Under the pieces are notes generated by a model, which ran no database searches, was not told the origin of the DNA, and saw nothing but the letters and a program-made list of their open reading frames with translations. A stretch of 64,000 bases of DNA from Gammaproteobacteria bacterium 45_16_T64. GTDB taxonomy: Bacteria; Pseudomonadota; Gammaproteobacteria; Pseudomonadales; Ketobacteraceae. Each line of letters opens with the position of its first letter. Position 1 is the first letter of the stretch. Made by a program: the position numbers and the translations under genes. Positions 6,931 through 41,486 of this stretch are shown here, piece after piece. The DNA lies in the NCBI GenBank assembly GCA_002162955.1, contig MABD01000057.1, positions 248,001-312,000 of the forward strand, in the 5' to 3' direction.

Positions 6931-8038
6931 CGCATATTCCTTTTGTATAAGTTCAGACATAAATTGAGTTTTGACAATGCCTTTACAGCACTTCGATTAT
7001 TTTCTTTAAAAACGGACACAGGCTTCCACCATATACATATGGCAAGAGCACTAAAAAAGGGAAAACTAGGTACTAAACTAAGTAACACTGAGGGGACAGA
7101 AGGTTGACTGGTAAGTTTCAAACAACGCATCAGCAACACGCCACCCATAGACCTAATAAGGTGCATGTTAGATTACGTGAATAGACTGTTAAGCGCCGAA
7201 TACCAAAGCGCACATGTTTGGATATATGTCTTATTAGCATTTGTTAGGAAACTGTCGTTTATTGTTTTTCTTTTATTCCGTACCAAGCAAACCAAGTACG
7301 CTGGCTACCATTAGCGATATCAATCAGTGCTGTTAATTTATCAGCCCATCTTGACGACACTATGACGCATTGGGTTATCCACGCAGCATTTTACTTCGCT
7401 GATTACGGCCAATATTTACTGATAAACACCATACCTGAGTTAACCCAAAGGCATCAATCTATTATTGTCCCTATATGTAAACATTTGTTTATTTTTCCAA
7501 ATTACGGGCATTTGCGCACAAAACACTAATCTTTAGATTAGCCATTTATTAACAATTTATGCTGCGAAACCCAAAAACAAAACACTAGTTCACTTTTTTC
7601 AAAAGACGAACAGCAGAGAACCAAATGGGACAAGATACCGGTAAGATACACAATCATCACGACTTATCGCCGCCAAATAGATTATTTTGCAGTCAATCGA
7701 GCGGTAAAGCTACCTCCAGACACACATTGCCCAACAGGAAGGGCTGAGTGTTGCCGCCTAGGAGAACCGTTCAGGAGAGTCCAAGGAGTGCTTTGGCCAG
7801 AAAACCTCACCATATGACCGATAAAGGCCAAATCGTAGTGATTCCGCATATTCCAGTAATGCCGGGCCAACAACAATGACCATTATGCGCCATACCTATA
7901 CCGATTAAGCGTAGTTATTAGGATATTCGATGTGTCAATTATACGGCTCTAGTGATTAATGTTAACAAGATACCTGTAACTGTATACACGCTAGAAATGG
8001 TAGCCCAAATACAATCCAACACACGGAGAAGGCGCTCA
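6931..8038. other. 1.1 kb gap between pfaA and the regulatory operon
   Basis: This stretch separates the pfaA start from the end of the LysR-type gene. I see no open reading frame with recognisable homology, no tRNA and no strong rho-independent terminator. The parts at about 7200-7330 and 7440-7600 are AT-rich. It most likely holds the pfaA promoter, a long 5' leader and binding sites for regulators, possibly the adjacent LysR-type protein. Two short minus-strand frames (6927-7166 and 7682-7876) look like chance. This reading is inference from position only. Confidence 0.5.
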
Positions 8039-29319: not shown

Positions 29320-30069
29320 GTGAGGCCACAAGATATCGAGGGGCTATTTGCACTAGGCATGGTGGCGCTATTTGTCGCCGCAGAGAGAATGCGTCCACTC
29401 AGAGCAACAAACAAAAAACGAGACTTTAGATTAGATCTTGCTGGATTCATCTGTATTGTTCTGTTCGGGAAGTTTTCACGCCTCCTCCTTCATCATTGGG
29501 GTGTCGAAGTCGGGGACATTTACCAAGCCACCCTGTCAAGGGTTCATTCCGGCTACGAGATCCTCCCTTCAATATTGCGTGTATCCGTTGCAATTATTAT
29601 TACCGACTTTATTCTTTATTGGATTCATCGCTTTATGCACAATCCTAAGTTTTGGCGCTTCCACATTTGGCACCATTCAACAGAAGAGCTCTACTGGTTC
29701 TCTGGATTTAGAGCGTCATTTTTCCATACCTTCCTCTTTTTGACGCCACAAGTCTTGCTCATCTATCTATTAGGTCTCGGCGTTTACGAAGTGTTATCCG
29801 CAATGTTATTCGGTATTTTTATTCAGTTTTGGCAACATACCAATATTACCTTTAGCTTTGGATTTCTCGATAAATGGCTCATGACCCCAAAATATCACTT
29901 CGTGCATCACGCTGTCGAAGAACAATATCGAGATAAAAATTTCGGCACGGTCCTAGTCATTTGGGATCGAATTTTCGGCACCTATATTGACCCAAAAAAC
30001 GTCGACGCTGGCGTACAGCTCGGTCTTAAAAAGAAAAAGCCCGTGTGGCAAATGATTGCTGGAGTATAA
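29320..30069 (+). CDS. Sterol desaturase/fatty acid hydroxylase family membrane protein
   Basis: 249-residue integral-membrane di-iron oxygenase. The histidine clusters are present in order: HRFMH, HIWHH, QHTN, and HH in FVHHAVEEQYRDKNFG. These bind the di-iron centre in the family that hydroxylates or desaturates sterols and fatty acyl chains. About four to five hydrophobic helices flank them. The GTG at 29320 is chosen because AGGGAG lies at 29308-29313; a GTG at 29287 is possible. It is followed after two bases by an Asp/Asn beta-hydroxylase gene, so two different oxygenases are co-expressed. Bacterial members often act on lipids, but the substrate is unknown. Confidence 0.88.
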   Translation: MRPQDIEGLFALGMVALFVAAERMRPLRATNKKRDFRLDLAGFICIVLFGKFSRLLLHHWGVEVGDIYQATLSRVHSGYEILPSILRVSVAIIITDFILYWIHRFMHNPKFWRFHIWHHSTEELYWFSGFRASFFHTFLFLTPQVLLIYLLGLGVYEVLSAMLFGIFIQFWQHTNITFSFGFLDKWLMTPKYHFVHHAVEEQYRDKNFGTVLVIWDRIFGTYIDPKNVDAGVQLGLKKKKPVWQMIAGV

Positions 30070-30071
30070 CG

Positions 30072-30761
30072 ATGAAAATCCCTAATCCTTTCAGAATATT
30101 CAATCCCTTTTTTGATCTATGGGTGGGTGGAAAAAATCGACCTATATTCTTTGACGTAGACCAATCATTTCCTTCTTTGCGTTCTCTTGATGATCACGTC
30201 GACACCATCAAAGAAGAACTAATGGGAGTATTACAAAGCCCAACTACAATCCCTAAATACCATGAGCTGGATAAGTTCCAATACCCAATCTCTGGCGAAA
30301 TTGACGCAGACAAAGACTGGAAAGTATTTTTGCTTTACGCCCTCGGTCAGCGACCTGACGCAAACAGAAAGCGATGCCCAAAAACCGTTGCGCTACTGGA
30401 TGATATCCCCCATGTATTCCAAGCCTTCTTCTCAATACTCGAAGCGGGAAAGTCAATTCCAGCCCATGAAGGTCCTTATCGGGGGTATCTTAGATACCAC
30501 CTCGGCGTTGACGTGCCTAAAGATAATCCTCCCTCCATTCGTATACATGATCAATGGTACACATGGAAACAAGATGATAGCGTATTCTTTGACGACAGCT
30601 GGAATCATGAAGTCGTCAATTCATGTAAAGAAGATCGCGTGGTTCTGATTGTTGATGTGTTCCGACCGATGCCCAAGTTCCCAAACAGAGTAAATCATTT
30701 TGTTCACGATGTTTTCGGCACTCTCTATGGCAAGTTGCTCACAAAAAATATCGACACGTAG
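30072..30761 (+). CDS. Aspartyl/asparaginyl beta-hydroxylase family protein (LpxO-like)
   Basis: 229-residue Fe(II)/2-oxoglutarate-dependent dioxygenase. The family core is evident: IPAHEGPYRGYLRYHLGVDV, then SWNHEV with the metal-binding His, and VVLIVDVFRPM ending in the 2OG-binding Arg. LpxO, which 2-hydroxylates lipid A acyl chains, belongs to this family, so a lipid substrate is plausible. The first 40 residues contain little hydrophobic sequence, unlike membrane-anchored LpxO. The ATG at 30072 has GGAG upstream, within the preceding gene's last codons. The gene pairs with the fatty acid hydroxylase and precedes a small outer-membrane protein. Confidence 0.85.
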   Translation: MKIPNPFRIFNPFFDLWVGGKNRPIFFDVDQSFPSLRSLDDHVDTIKEELMGVLQSPTTIPKYHELDKFQYPISGEIDADKDWKVFLLYALGQRPDANRKRCPKTVALLDDIPHVFQAFFSILEAGKSIPAHEGPYRGYLRYHLGVDVPKDNPPSIRIHDQWYTWKQDDSVFFDDSWNHEVVNSCKEDRVVLIVDVFRPMPKFPNRVNHFVHDVFGTLYGKLLTKNIDT

Positions 30762-32805: not shown

Positions 32806-32836
32806 TTAATGACCATTAAATTATATTGGTCATTAA
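32806..32836. promoter_or_regulatory. Perfect inverted repeat, candidate operator upstream of Rieske oxygenase
   Basis: Arms TTAATGACC (32806-32814) and GGTCATTAA (32828-32836) are perfectly complementary with a 13-nt AT-rich spacer, 28 bases before the oxygenase start and between two divergent genes. The 22-bp centre-to-centre spacing fits two adjacent major-groove sites for a dimeric regulator. Which regulator binds is unknown. Confidence 0.55.
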
Positions 32837-32864
32837 CTTACTTCCTAACTCACAAAGGCACAGC

Positions 32865-33872
32865 ATGCACACCCAAGACAGAGAGAAACGAACCTATCCT
32901 TTTCCCGAATTTCCTAATGGATGGTACGTTCTGGCAAATAGTTCTGACATTAACGTAGGAGACGTTAAGTCGTACCATTACTTCGGCAAGGACATTGTTA
33001 TCTACCGAAGCAGTAATTTAGCAGTGCATATTGTAGACGCCTATTGCCCACACCTTGGAGCCCACCTTGGAAAAGGAGGCACAGTCGTAGGGAACAACCT
33101 GCGCTGCCCGTTCCATCATTGGCAGTTTGACGAATCCGGTAAATGTGTCGATATACCCTACTCAGAACCACAGCCGAAAGCCTGCCTAAAGCACTGGGCA
33201 GCGATAGAAAGAAATGGACAAATCATCACGTATTTTTCCACCGATGGGTCAGCCCCTCACTGTGAGGTTCCAGAAGTTAACGAATTACAAGGGGATAAGT
33301 TTCCAGGATGGAGCCAATCTTATTTTAGTAAGTTTGAATATACAGCCCACGTGCAAGAAGTGGTTGAAAACATTGTAGACCTCGGCCACTTCATTCCAAT
33401 ACATCATGTTGAAGAAGTCCCGCACATAGATGAAATGACCTTTTCAGGTCCTAGAGCAACATTACGCTACAGCACAAAAAACAAAGTCCTGGGAAAAATA
33501 TTCAAAGCCATGCTGCACTTTGAATATTATGGTCCAACCTATACCGTCGTTAAGGTAAAGACCATGACAGACATTGTCTTGATCGCATCCATGGCCCCTA
33601 CTGCAAACGGCCAACTAAGGCACCGCTTTCATTTCCGAATGAAAAATATGATCCCACTACTTAATCCCATACTTCTGCGTATCATGGCAAAACAAATTGA
33701 ACATGATTTTATGGGTGACCTCCCCATTTGGGAACACAAGATATACAGAGAGCACCCGATATTGTGCAAAGGAGAAGGAGCCATCATGAAAATGCGAAAT
33801 TGGTTTAAACAATTTTATTCCAGTGAAACTCCCCCGACCAAAAACGCAATACCACTCAAAGAGGTCAGTTAA
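32865..33872 (+). CDS. Rieske non-heme iron oxygenase, KshA/cholesterol-desaturase type
   Basis: 335-residue oxygenase component. The N-terminal Rieske 2Fe-2S domain has CPHLGAH and CPFHHW (near residues 65 and 85). The C-terminal domain has the mononuclear iron site in ENIVDLGHFIPIHH and an acidic ligand probably in EHDFMGDLP. The layout and size are closest to 3-ketosteroid 9-alpha-hydroxylase (KshA) and the Neverland/DAF-36 cholesterol 7-desaturases, not to ring-hydroxylating dioxygenases. The ATG at 32865 is preceded by AAAGG. No reductase or ferredoxin gene is adjacent. A steroid or isoprenoid substrate is likely by family, not shown here. Confidence 0.82.
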   Translation: MHTQDREKRTYPFPEFPNGWYVLANSSDINVGDVKSYHYFGKDIVIYRSSNLAVHIVDAYCPHLGAHLGKGGTVVGNNLRCPFHHWQFDESGKCVDIPYSEPQPKACLKHWAAIERNGQIITYFSTDGSAPHCEVPEVNELQGDKFPGWSQSYFSKFEYTAHVQEVVENIVDLGHFIPIHHVEEVPHIDEMTFSGPRATLRYSTKNKVLGKIFKAMLHFEYYGPTYTVVKVKTMTDIVLIASMAPTANGQLRHRFHFRMKNMIPLLNPILLRIMAKQIEHDFMGDLPIWEHKIYREHPILCKGEGAIMKMRNWFKQFYSSETPPTKNAIPLKEVS

Positions 33873-33887
33873 ACCACAACGTTATCG

Positions 33888-34673
33888 CTACTTTATCGCG
33901 TTCAGTGCAGTGATGGTTAACCCTAGCGATTCAGGTTGCTGCGTAACATTGGCATTTAACCGGAAATAGCGACGCAAATTATCTTCTGTGAGTACCTGCT
34001 TCGGAACGCCATCTGCTTGCAGAGTGTTATTCGCGAGCAGTAAAATGCGATCACAAAAACGCGACGCCATAGAAAGATCGTGAATTGCCGCTATCACTAA
34101 CTTACCACTATCCGCCAGTGCCTTAGCTAGCGCCAATATCTCTAACTGATAGCAAACATCTAGATTCGCGGTAACCTCATCCAATAATACAATCGGTGTT
34201 TGTTGAGCGATTGCCCGCGCAACAAACACACGTTGACGCTCCCCACCAGAAAGCTCATTGATAGGCTGCGTAGCAAATTGTGCTACGCCCACCTGCTCCA
34301 TCGCAGTTTGGATTATTTTATCGTCATGACGAGACGGAGGATGAAACCTTCCAAGCCAAGGATTCCTTCCCATTGAAACTATATCCTCAACGGAAAAGCT
34401 ATAACCAATATGGGTATCTTGTGGTACCAATGTAATATGCTTCGCCAGCTCACGCCTCTTAATCCTGTTAATACACCGATTATTGAGACGAATCTCCCCA
34501 AGTTCTGGCTTAACCAGTCCAATCAACGCATTTAACAATGTCGATTTTCCAGCGCCATTAGGGCCAATTAACCCAACCATTCCGCCCTTGGAGAATGAAA
34601 GATCCACCCCCGAAAACACCACATGATCGTCATAAGAAAATTGTAATTGCTTTACCTCTAGACCGGTGCTCAT
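33888..34673 (-). CDS. btuD: Vitamin B12-type ABC transporter ATP-binding protein (BtuD/FecE family)
   Basis: 261-residue ATPase for import across the inner membrane. It contains Walker A GPNGAGKST, signature LSGGERQR and Walker B IVLLDEVTANLD, with Val in place of the usual Pro of DEPT, and an H-loop AAIHDLSMA. It is the last gene of the riboswitch-led operon, overlapping its neighbour by four bases. FecE, FhuC and HmuV look similar; the riboswitch decides for cobalamin. Confidence 0.88.
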   Translation of the reverse strand: MSTGLEVKQLQFSYDDHVVFSGVDLSFSKGGMVGLIGPNGAGKSTLLNALIGLVKPELGEIRLNNRCINRIKRRELAKHITLVPQDTHIGYSFSVEDIVSMGRNPWLGRFHPPSRHDDKIIQTAMEQVGVAQFATQPINELSGGERQRVFVARAIAQQTPIVLLDEVTANLDVCYQLEILALAKALADSGKLVIAAIHDLSMASRFCDRILLLANNTLQADGVPKQVLTEDNLRRYFRLNANVTQQPESLGLTITALNAIK

Positions 34674-35662
34674 AAATTTACCTTATCTTTTTCGCCTGAC
34701 ACATCATCCACTAGCTTATCAAATCGATGCCGCCACTCTTTCAGCAATGACTGCTTTTCAGGATGCAAATACTCATATTGCCTGATTGCTACCCGCACAG
34801 CGGTGCGTAACAAACGGTTTTCACTGAGAGCAATGTCGCTAGGCAATGTATCTGCATCCAACCAGCCAAACACACCCTGCTTCTGTTGGTAGAACCCACC
34901 CACACTGAAGCGCTTCAGCCACTGTTGATATGTATGAAATTGGCGCTCATCAAACGCTTTGCCTTTCCCCAACAAATCCTTACACGGATTCGCCGCGTGC
35001 AAAGTAAACATTGGAAGCATTCTATCAGGTATAGGTATGTTGGCTGAAAAAGCACGGCCGCTCGCCATGAGTTTTGGGAGTACATGGGTGTGTGGACCTT
35101 CCGGTGATTTTTCAATACCTATCGATTGATACACTTCCAACCGCCCCAGTGCCGTAGTAAACACCCGATGAGGGCCAGTTTTGATGATTGCGCCCATTGC
35201 CGGATTACCAGGGGCCAATAAATCACTGCCACAAGCTAGCCGCAACAGTGTGATCAAGGCCTTATCATTAGTACGAATCGCAACATCAACAAAACCACGC
35301 TGCAGCCCCATATCAAACATTATATGGTCACGGTGTTCCACTTTTAACGCACCGTGATCTGGGCCGAGCTCAGTTACCACAGGGTGATTACTCATCATTG
35401 CTTTGTCTGCTTCCAAACAAAAGGCAACCCCCTGGTTCCAATGGCGCGGATCCTTAGTTAAGTACTCATACGCAACGGGCTGAATATCCTCCCGTAGCGT
35501 CACAGCCATAGCACCACGTTCCGTGATACAGCCAAACCTGTCGCCATCTGGAGCACAGCGCTCTTCATTGGCGTCCCACATAAACTCACCAATAGCACCA
35601 AAGCTTCCTATACTCCAACCATTAAGGGGGGAATCAAAGCTCTGCTTAATCAAATCTAACAT
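34670..35662 (-). CDS. Unrecognised protein in the cobalamin uptake operon
   Basis: 330 residues that I cannot place in a family. No signal peptide or transmembrane segment is visible, so it is probably cytoplasmic. The sequence opens with GWSIGSFGAIGEFMWD and is rich in His motifs (EHRDHIMFD, GPHRVF, GPHTHVLPK) and Cys residues, which could serve metal or corrinoid binding. It lies between the permease and ATPase genes, four bases from the former and overlapping the latter, so it is part of the transporter's transcription unit. A role in receiving, releasing or modifying imported cobalamin is the natural guess, but it is not similar to CbiZ, the known corrinoid-salvage enzyme of such operons. 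Confidence 0.6.
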   Translation of the reverse strand: MLDLIKQSFDSPLNGWSIGSFGAIGEFMWDANEERCAPDGDRFGCITERGAMAVTLREDIQPVAYEYLTKDPRHWNQGVAFCLEADKAMMSNHPVVTELGPDHGALKVEHRDHIMFDMGLQRGFVDVAIRTNDKALITLLRLACGSDLLAPGNPAMGAIIKTGPHRVFTTALGRLEVYQSIGIEKSPEGPHTHVLPKLMASGRAFSANIPIPDRMLPMFTLHAANPCKDLLGKGKAFDERQFHTYQQWLKRFSVGGFYQQKQGVFGWLDADTLPSDIALSENRLLRTAVRVAIRQYEYLHPEKQSLLKEWRHRFDKLVDDVSGEKDKVNL

Positions 35663-40075: not shown

Positions 40076-41486
40076 AACGCGTCAAATATGACACGTGGAA
40101 ACTTATTGCATGGGTGGGAATTGTATGTTTTTTGACGCATTTGTCAAACATGGATAAGAAAAATATTCCCTTACAATTCTCGTCATCGACGCTAAGTTGA
40201 GACATGCCTATACTCAGTGTCACGCTAATTTTTTGATTTGAGCCGATAGAGAATGCATTATTTTCTATCTCCATCACTATTCGCTCCGCAATAACCAATG
40301 CACTTTCAACATCAGTACACGGTAGTACAATGGCAAACTCCTCGCCGCCTATTCGAGAAAAAGTATCACCATACCGAATGTATTCGTTAATTCTTCTCGA
40401 TAATTCAACTAGCACGACATTCCCTGCTTCATGACCATAGTTATCATTAATATTCTTAAATAAATCTATATCCAAAAGCAGTAAAATTAACGATCTGTCG
40501 TACCTCTTGCTGTCCATAAATTCCCTTTTTAGAACCTGATGAAAGTGCCGGCTATTATATATTTTGGTAAGCTCATCAATCAGCGTTAATTTTTCTAGCT
40601 TCTTGTTCTCACTCAACTTCTCCTGCAACGAACAGATAAGATGTTCACGCTCGCTGACATCCCGCATCACAATAATGATGTTAACGCCATACGCGGTATC
40701 CAGCATCCTCATCGCAACGTCAACCAACAGACAACGCTTGTCCTTTGAAAAAACGTTTAAGCCATTCTTACTTAACGACAATTCGTTGTCGGGATTTTCC
40801 GTATACTCTTTTACAACACCGCCGAGATCATCGGCCTCTGGCACCGACAAATCTCGCAAAGTCATTGATTCCAATTCATCTTTGGTAAAGATCAGAATTG
40901 ATGTTGCCGCACTATTCACTTTCAGAATATTCCCCTCAACATCCACTTTAAATACCGCATCGGGGATCGTTTCAAATAAACGCTCGCTTTCCTCAAACGC
41001 CAATTTTGTGGTTGCGTAGGACTTATCAATCTCTCGAATAATGCGCTGAAACTTCAACTCCAATTCTTTTAATTTAGTAATATCATTATGGGCACCAATC
41101 ATTCTAATTGGTTTGCCAGAATCATCTCTTATAGCCATCCCTCGACAACGTATCCAAACGATTGATCCATCTCTATGGGTGTAACGAACTATTTGATCAT
41201 AAGGATGATTGGGATTCTTACAATGGCTTTCAAAATTATCCATAGCCATCGCTAAATCATCTTGATTGATAATACCCTGCCACTCCGATGAGAGGTGCTT
41301 TTTCTCCTTTGGGTCATAACCTAACACCTCCCAAAACCTATCGTTCATCCACTCATTGTCAGGGTTCTCGATATCCCAATACCAAAGACCATCCAGACTC
41401 GATTCCTGTAGAAAATCAAATATTTTGCCATCCGACTGGATCAGCGAATAAAGCTCTTCCTGCAAATAATTCTGACTGTCATTCAT
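40074..41486 (-). CDS. PAS-PAS-GGDEF diguanylate cyclase with atypical C-terminus
   Basis: 470 residues. A first PAS domain (about 20-145; LDGLWYWDIENPDNEWMND, then VRYTHRDGSIVWI) and a second PAS (about 165-290) precede a GGDEF domain (about 310-460). The active site is GGEEF, and an RxxD inhibitory site (RYGD) lies five residues before it, so it should make cyclic di-GMP with product inhibition. The final helix, normally ADxALYxAKxxGRN, is replaced by FDKCVKKHTIPTH, which may impair folding or activity. No membrane segment is seen. The 3' end coincides with the cobalamin riboswitch of the next operon. Confidence 0.85.
   Translation of the reverse strand: MNDSQNYLQEELYSLIQSDGKIFDFLQESSLDGLWYWDIENPDNEWMNDRFWEVLGYDPKEKKHLSSEWQGIINQDDLAMAMDNFESHCKNPNHPYDQIVRYTHRDGSIVWIRCRGMAIRDDSGKPIRMIGAHNDITKLKELELKFQRIIREIDKSYATTKLAFEESERLFETIPDAVFKVDVEGNILKVNSAATSILIFTKDELESMTLRDLSVPEADDLGGVVKEYTENPDNELSLSKNGLNVFSKDKRCLLVDVAMRMLDTAYGVNIIIVMRDVSEREHLICSLQEKLSENKKLEKLTLIDELTKIYNSRHFHQVLKREFMDSKRYDRSLILLLLDIDLFKNINDNYGHEAGNVVLVELSRRINEYIRYGDTFSRIGGEEFAIVLPCTDVESALVIAERIVMEIENNAFSIGSNQKISVTLSIGMSQLSVDDENCKGIFFLSMFDKCVKKHTIPTHAISFHVSYLTR

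Follow-up and report, generated by a model that had tools for sequence, protein, structure and literature searches.

To our knowledge, little has been established about the fate of vitamin B12 in bacteria between the importer BtuCD and the adenosyltransferase. A locus in a 64,000-nucleotide stretch of the genome of Gammaproteobacteria bacterium 45_16_T64 (the window) raises a question that bears on this step: what is the function of a 330-residue protein whose gene stands between the permease and ATPase genes of an apparent B12 importer? A first-pass annotation had described it as an unrecognised, His-rich protein within a riboswitch-controlled B12 uptake operon, and had suggested that it might act as a chaperone of corrinoids, as an enzyme that processes cobalamin or as a regulator of the transporter. 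We find that proteins of this kind are encoded with a B12 importer in many bacteria, and propose that they most likely receive or chemically prepare the imported vitamin. The B12 uptake system would have, in them, an undescribed, probably cytosolic component.

The open reading frame starts with ATG, has exactly the extent first given for it and lies on the minus strand, which had been left unspecified. The order of transcription is riboswitch, BtuB, BtuF-like, BtuC, the protein of interest and BtuD (Table 1), confirming its place between permease and ATPase. Neighbouring genes overlap by 4 nt at BtuB/BtuF, BtuF/BtuC and DUF6925/BtuD, and a 4-nt gap separates BtuC from DUF6925; all five genes thus overlap or nearly touch, as had been claimed. 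Riboswitch control was likewise borne out by a complete aptamer about 220 bases ahead of the BtuB-like start, so that a cobalamin riboswitch precedes a TonB-dependent receptor and a FecCD-type ABC importer. A sigma-70-like site abuts the 5' edge of the riboswitch; it is a consensus match only, and the region holds nine such sites where shuffles give 12.4.

Table 1. Features of the B12 uptake operon in the window.
Feature	Position	Strand	Basis
BtuD-like ATPase (ABC_tran), 261 aa	33888..34673	minus	PF00005
DUF6925 protein (PF21973), 330 aa	34670..35662	minus	331 bits, E 9.4e-99
Codons S186-P196 (SPEGPHTHVLP)	35075..35107	minus	P187, G189, P190, H191, H193 invariant in 79/79
Codon C82	35417..35419	minus	Cys in 78/79 aligned sequences
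BtuC-like permease (FecCD), 348 aa	35667..36713	minus	PF01032
BtuF-like substrate-binding protein (Peripla_BP_2), 344 aa	36710..37744	minus	PF01497
BtuB-like TonB-dependent receptor, 650 aa	37741..39693	minus	PF07715 + PF00593
Cobalamin riboswitch aptamer RF00174	39913..40121	minus	113.7 bits (gathering 31.5), full length 1-189/189
Sigma-70-like promoter site TTGACA-16-TACAAT	40120..40147	minus	11/12 consensus positions

The naming of the four neighbours as BtuB, F, C and D stands on their domains, the riboswitch and, for receptor, permease and ATPase, the ranking of best hits. The top NCBIfam matches were TIGR01779 TonB-B12 for the receptor (229 bits, under the cut-off of 599.7), NF007081 BtuC for the permease (292 bits, under 461) and NF007082 corrinoid ABC ATPase for the ATPase (299 bits, under 537). 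The BtuF model gave only 24 bits, with other NCBIfam models scoring higher, so the BtuF-like label is assigned by position. None of the four transport proteins of the window reached the curated BtuB, BtuC, BtuD or BtuF equivalog cut-offs of NCBIfam. Since the B12 and corrinoid matches are under cut-off, B12 specificity in the window rests mainly on the riboswitch and the best-hit ranking.

The protein itself turned out not to be unrecognised: it is a full-length member of Pfam family PF21973 (DUF6925), matching profile positions 4-299 of 300 at a score far above the cut-off of 27 bits. This family is catalogued without an assigned function, and the linkage to B12 is an addition of the present analysis. 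All 79 sequences of our alignment, the window protein included, matched DUF6925; two further sequences, of loci L038 and L059 (loci carry our own L numbers), were left out because of in-frame stops. At E up to 10, 15 other Pfam families were matched, each by 1-4 of the 79 sequences and at best with E 0.011, and neither PF01955 (CbiZ) nor PF02310 (B12-binding domain) was among the 16 families so matched. The absence of any match to a CbiZ model agrees with the earlier statement that the protein is not CbiZ. We took as chance the matches to Pfam NMB0537_N (4 of 79 sequences, best E 0.011), to NCBIfam NF038252 cable pilin (the best for the window protein, E 0.094) and, in the PDB, to RuBisCO (E 0.42) and CFAP141 (E 0.096); sequence searches of the PDB gave no solved relative better than E 0.096. 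No internal repeat was listed when the family was compared with itself by hhalign. A literature search found the name DUF6925 in no paper and its link to B12 in no title or abstract; an earlier notice is possible, as two older studies of B12 genes across genomes lay outside the search. A table in PMC3621897 lists btuB, F, C and D as Mchl_5676-5679 on plasmid pCMU01, and the parts of that paper examined do not mention the DUF6925 gene that adjoins them there.

A genome scan with the window protein alone returned no relative, and a scan with the alignment returned 514 stretches encoding one in a collection of one genome per species; the best 80 were analysed. Given 514 such stretches, a known function for DUF6925 would annotate many hypothetical proteins. 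The family was found in 10 of 398 evenly drawn genomes of the window's phylum and in 6 of 96 relatives of the window genome (the window's own counted in both), and in none of 14 control genomes; the window's genome has a single copy. As only 10 of the 398 phylum genomes carry it, a B12 importer would appear to need no DUF6925 in general. Within the genus, the BtuC of the three genomes that carry DUF6925 is 59-100% identical to that of the window; in the two that lack it, of 84 and 87% completeness, no BtuC exceeds 36% identity. Matches were also present in 49 plasmid records, and the 12 regions examined all come from Alphaproteobacteria. Two of the 80 loci, L076 and L090, are the two ends of record CP051234.1 and are probably one locus counted twice: the loci are alike and two CbiC matches of equal score lie near the ends, probably the uncut overlap of a circular chromosome.

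To describe the neighbourhoods, homologues of btu, cbiZ, cbtA/B, cobQ and exbB were located around the 80 loci by tblastn. Such markers alone cannot tell a B12 importer from a siderophore importer. A locus was counted as linked when homologues of at least two of btuF, btuC and btuD lay on the same strand and their centres fell within 6.5 kb, and 67 of the 80 best among 514 loci were linked by this rule. The order btuB-F-C-D-DUF6925 was the commonest of those recorded (36 of 80), followed by btuB-F-C-D-cbiZ-DUF6925 (16); the order of the window, with DUF6925 between C and D, occurred in five. All 12 plasmid regions examined have DUF6925 beside a btuBFCD-type importer, divergently in L017. The linkage among the 80 is biased toward close relatives because these are the closest of the 514, and the phylum sample is less so biased. 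Of its ten loci (the window's excluded), six belong to btu clusters that include a cobalamin riboswitch, one of them, L163, having btuC/D/F homologues on the opposite strand; three (L164-L166) are unlinked, and L167 has cobU and a cobQ-like gene, not btu, as neighbours. DUF6925 is thus in general tied to B12 importers beyond the locus of the window.

The 13 loci that failed the linkage rule are of several kinds. L088 and L091 have btuB and L074 has btuD; L080 and L093 are on short contigs, the latter with a btuF fragment directly downstream (100 bits, the limit being 120); cobalamin riboswitches are found close by in L029 and L073. In the remaining six (L022, L033, L034, L043, L070 and L099), whose flanks both exceed 2 kb, neither a btu gene nor a cobalamin riboswitch was found. 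These six, without any B12 neighbour, argue against a strict importer partnership. One linked locus, L072, has btuC/D-like genes some kilobases away and a cobalamin riboswitch of its own 165 nt upstream of DUF6925. Near DUF6925, riboswitches also precede other genes: in L073 (5065-7721) one stands directly ahead of a gene for cobalamin-independent methionine synthase, and in L072 (3330-6358) and L029 (7021-9266) one precedes a gene for a ribonucleotide reductase large subunit with ATP cones. Profile search and neighbourhood analysis, both proposed in the first-pass annotation, hence gave a family without assigned function and with btu-type linkage at most of its loci, rather than a well-known family unrelated to corrinoids and linked to B12 genes in the window alone. 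We consider it very probable that DUF6925 acts on or with corrinoids in some way.

Regulation and gene packing were similar at other loci. RF00174 lay directly upstream of btuB in 15 of the 18 btuB-bearing loci scanned against Rfam; in L045, L054 and L088, the last with btuB at the start of its contig, none was found directly upstream of that gene. In L078 and L017, the riboswitch ahead of btuB is not followed by DUF6925. Gaps were computed for 67 loci in which a btu or cbiZ gene precedes DUF6925 by no more than 2.5 kb, a set different from the 67 that passed the linkage rule, and with start codons picked by rule the approximate gap was -60 to 60 nt in 53 of them. A tonB gene is found between btuD and DUF6925 in L042 (6861-7961, plus strand), and a gap of about 1 kb at the same place in L026, L038, L042, L049, L050, L063 and L074 perhaps reflects the same insertion. 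In 12 of the 80 loci, exbB-like genes also follow DUF6925 at a distance of at most 1.5 kb.

Over 53 complete loci and the window, the mean pairwise identity was 0.488 for DUF6925 and 0.465 for BtuD, the two being about equally conserved. The distances of DUF6925 correlated with those of BtuF, BtuC and BtuD at 0.86, 0.82 and 0.87, and at most at 0.26 in 200 shuffles; the three Btu proteins correlate mutually at 0.85-0.92, and shared species history accounts for part of the correlation with DUF6925. A gene packed so tightly with btuC and btuD, with distances that track BtuC and BtuD, could encode an accessory subunit or regulator of BtuCD, which would bind at the cytosolic face and gate import (for instance by trans-inhibition once corrinoid is bound), leaving the corrinoid unchanged. 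We consider this quite improbable, given the loci without nearby btuC/D, including the BtuB-DUF6925 pairs L088 and L091, and given L072, where the riboswitch is directly ahead of DUF6925 and the btuC/D-like genes are distant. The invariant polar residues described below would also seem to exceed the needs of a docking protein. Among the three roles first suggested, a chaperone or a processing enzyme is the tentative leading reading, and regulation a lesser rival.

We then considered the physiology of 50 bearer genomes, namely that of the window and the 49 behind the 80 loci. CbiC, a marker of ring synthesis, was present in 40, CobS in 41, CbiZ in 17 and a PduO-type adenosyltransferase in 45; the window's genome has CbiC, CobS and adenosyltransferases of both PduO and BtuR types, and lacks CbiZ. 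The 40 bearers with CbiC, the window's included, probably make B12; DUF6925 is hence no hallmark of auxotrophs, and a role confined to auxotrophs was rejected. Seven bearers (L033, L034, L042, L043, L045, L054 and L099) have neither CbiC nor CobS, which may partly reflect incomplete assemblies. A B12-binding domain was present in all seven (barely over cut-off in that of L054), a PduO-type adenosyltransferase in five and a BtuR type in none, leaving two with neither. In L042, L045 and L054, a btuBFCD cluster contains or adjoins DUF6925; L033, L034, L043 and L099 are among the six loci without any B12 neighbour, which weighs against the use of these genomes as support. If these genomes are complete, intact imported cobamides would be their sole usable source, and the task of DUF6925 there would be other than preparing cobamides for rebuilding.

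Since the seven keep B12-binding domains and mostly an adenosyltransferase, we infer that DUF6925 acts on intact corrinoid. Imported intact cobalamins need removal of the upper ligand, which is a chemical step. The reading that we favour, tentatively and somewhat short of calling it probable, is that of a cytosolic acceptor which prepares the imported intact corrinoid for adenosylation by removal of the upper ligand or by reduction. The protein would belong to the BtuBFCD cobamide uptake system as a soluble part residing in the cytosol, a location suggested by the lack, on inspection by eye, of a signal peptide. It would take over the corrinoid delivered by BtuCD, most likely bind it and remove or exchange its upper axial ligand, or hold it for reduction, after which cob(I)alamin adenosyltransferase would act on the prepared corrinoid. 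Co-regulated with the importer and recurring beside it, the DUF6925 gene offers a candidate protein for the step after BtuCD. If the protein strips or swaps upper ligands, this would help to explain the use of varied environmental cobamides.

The main rival to this acceptor is a cobamide-remodelling enzyme, which would hydrolyse the nucleotide loop of foreign cobamides, as CbiZ and CbiR do, for rebuilding with the cell's own lower ligand. The genomic setting resembles that of cbiZ and cbiR, which are found in transport operons; the excerpted text of PMC7733943 describes CbiR as a cobamide phosphodiesterase that belongs to the AP endonuclease 2 superfamily and whose gene is often found next to cobamide genes, and so provides a precedent for a protein of unexpected family tied to corrinoid processing. 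Most bearers could rebuild, judging by CobS and CbiC; cobU and cobQ are neighbours in L167, and cobQ in L017; the many invariant charged residues and the HxH motif have an enzymatic look. Set against this are the seven genomes without CbiC and CobS, where rebuilding would be impossible if they are complete, and the presence of CbiZ, a possible redundancy, in 17 of the 50 genomes, its gene being a neighbour of DUF6925 in 18 of the 80 loci. Moreover, DUF6925 matches neither CbiZ nor any other hydrolase family, and has no Pfam match of the AP endonuclease 2 type, unlike CbiR. CbiZ (adenosylcobinamide amidohydrolase, PF01955), a corrinoid protein, is like DUF6925 encoded in btu operons, although the sequences do not match, and as both occur together the two are not simple alternatives. 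On this balance we judge remodelling to be rather unlikely.

The neighbours in L167 and L017 fit equally well a role in handling incomplete corrinoids, in which DUF6925 would pass cobyric acid or cobinamide from uptake to CobQ and CobU in a salvage branch. In L167 (6764-7651, plus strand), a DUF1289-DUF6925 fusion of 295 aa is followed by cobU, with the cobQ-like gene on the other strand; its DUF6925 part stops near profile position 227 of 300, by a real end or a frameshift. L017 pairs DUF6925 with cobQ, and CbiZ, the product of which is cobyric acid, is a frequent neighbour of the family. Cobinamide would be of no use in the seven genomes that lack both CobS and CbiC, and we regard this role as improbable.

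Which residues might serve the acceptor was considered from the alignment. G19, G22, A23, E26, F27, G50, W75, G100, D102, D117, G119, R130, R166, R174, E176, Q179, P187, G189, P190, H191, H193, R286, R294 and Q295 are invariant in all 79 sequences. The description as His-rich was overstated, with 12 histidines among 330 residues, yet H191 and H193 do stand out as the only invariant ones. C82 or the H191-x-H193 pair could ligate cobalt or a helper metal. In a more specific form of the acceptor reading, possible but on the whole not likely, DUF6925 would be a soluble bacterial counterpart of CblC, dedicated to the BtuBFCD system, that accepts cobalamin from BtuCD, strips the upper ligand by the C82 thiol, with metal assistance from H191-x-H193, or by both, and hands the product to adenosyltransferase. 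Upper-ligand processing of imported cobalamin, the function proposed here, is that of BtuM and of CblC/MMACHC. According to the excerpted text of PMC6072759, upper-ligand removal is achieved by one cysteine in BtuM and by a flavin in CblC, and Cys80 of BtuM ligates cobalt and is required for decyanation. The single conserved cysteine of BtuM finds a parallel in the near-invariant C82, whereas BtuM is a membrane protein and CblC uses flavin (same excerpt of PMC6072759). DUF6925 has no Pfam match to another family.

An AlphaFold2 model of the window protein (mean pLDDT 94.4, pTM 0.91) shows a core of about 230 residues, rich in beta structure, and then a helical part. The DUF6925 protein annotated in L016 (Azospirillum brasilense, 6992-7705, plus strand) has 237 aa and is missing the helical C-terminal part; in eight Azospirillum records the match is similarly limited to query residues 1-221. 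Foldseek gave no match in the PDB at E 0.001 for either the full model or the trimmed core, and none among viral structures at the same threshold. With VIA-align the top match was 3na2, an uncharacterised Leptospirillum protein (Z 7.0 with the full model, 5.9 with the core), which was not among the matches of the PDB sequence searches. Z values below 8 may reflect merely a common arrangement, and no solved structure appears to match the predicted fold clearly. Corrinoid enzymes such as MMACHC and BluB were absent from the VIA-align lists, an absence that carries no weight.

Right behind 3na2, with the full model, came the heme-carrier proteins PhuS (4mgf; Z 5.0, 137 residues aligned at 4.1 A) and ChuS (Z 4.8). 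This ranking, together with the likeness of the operons, prompted us to consider whether DUF6925 is a true distant member of the HemS/ChuS/PhuS fold recruited to cobalamin. A btu operon with DUF6925 would then mirror hmuRSTUV; HemS/ChuS/PhuS and ChuX/HutX are cytosolic tetrapyrrole proteins of a related TonB/ABC uptake operon. PhuS was found again behind 3na2 with the core (Z 5.3, 136 residues at 4.0 A), but ChuS was unlisted for it; at Z of about 5 the resemblance may mean just a common arrangement, and we count it as no more than a lead. The sequences give no support: likeness to the HemS/ChuX profiles (PF05171/PF06228) by hhalign amounted to E 0.11-0.42 over 15-22 columns only, in comparisons with small alignments (7 rows for HemS, 8 for ChuX), and the Pfam scan of the DUF6925 sequences gave no match to either family. 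With neither a Foldseek match at E 0.001 nor profile similarity, and with a different ligand, this is a weak rival, which we hold to be very improbable. Our literature search found no paper linking 3NA2 with HemS.

Two further genes of the window lie near the operon on the plus strand, encoding an aspartyl/asparaginyl beta-hydroxylase (30045-30761) and a KshA-like Rieske oxygenase (32826-33872). Near its DUF6925, L017, on a Novacetimonas plasmid, likewise encodes a hydroxylase of the Asp/Asn type (34% identity) and a Rieske protein (26% identity over 167 residues). The recurrence of the pair in both places may be due to chance.
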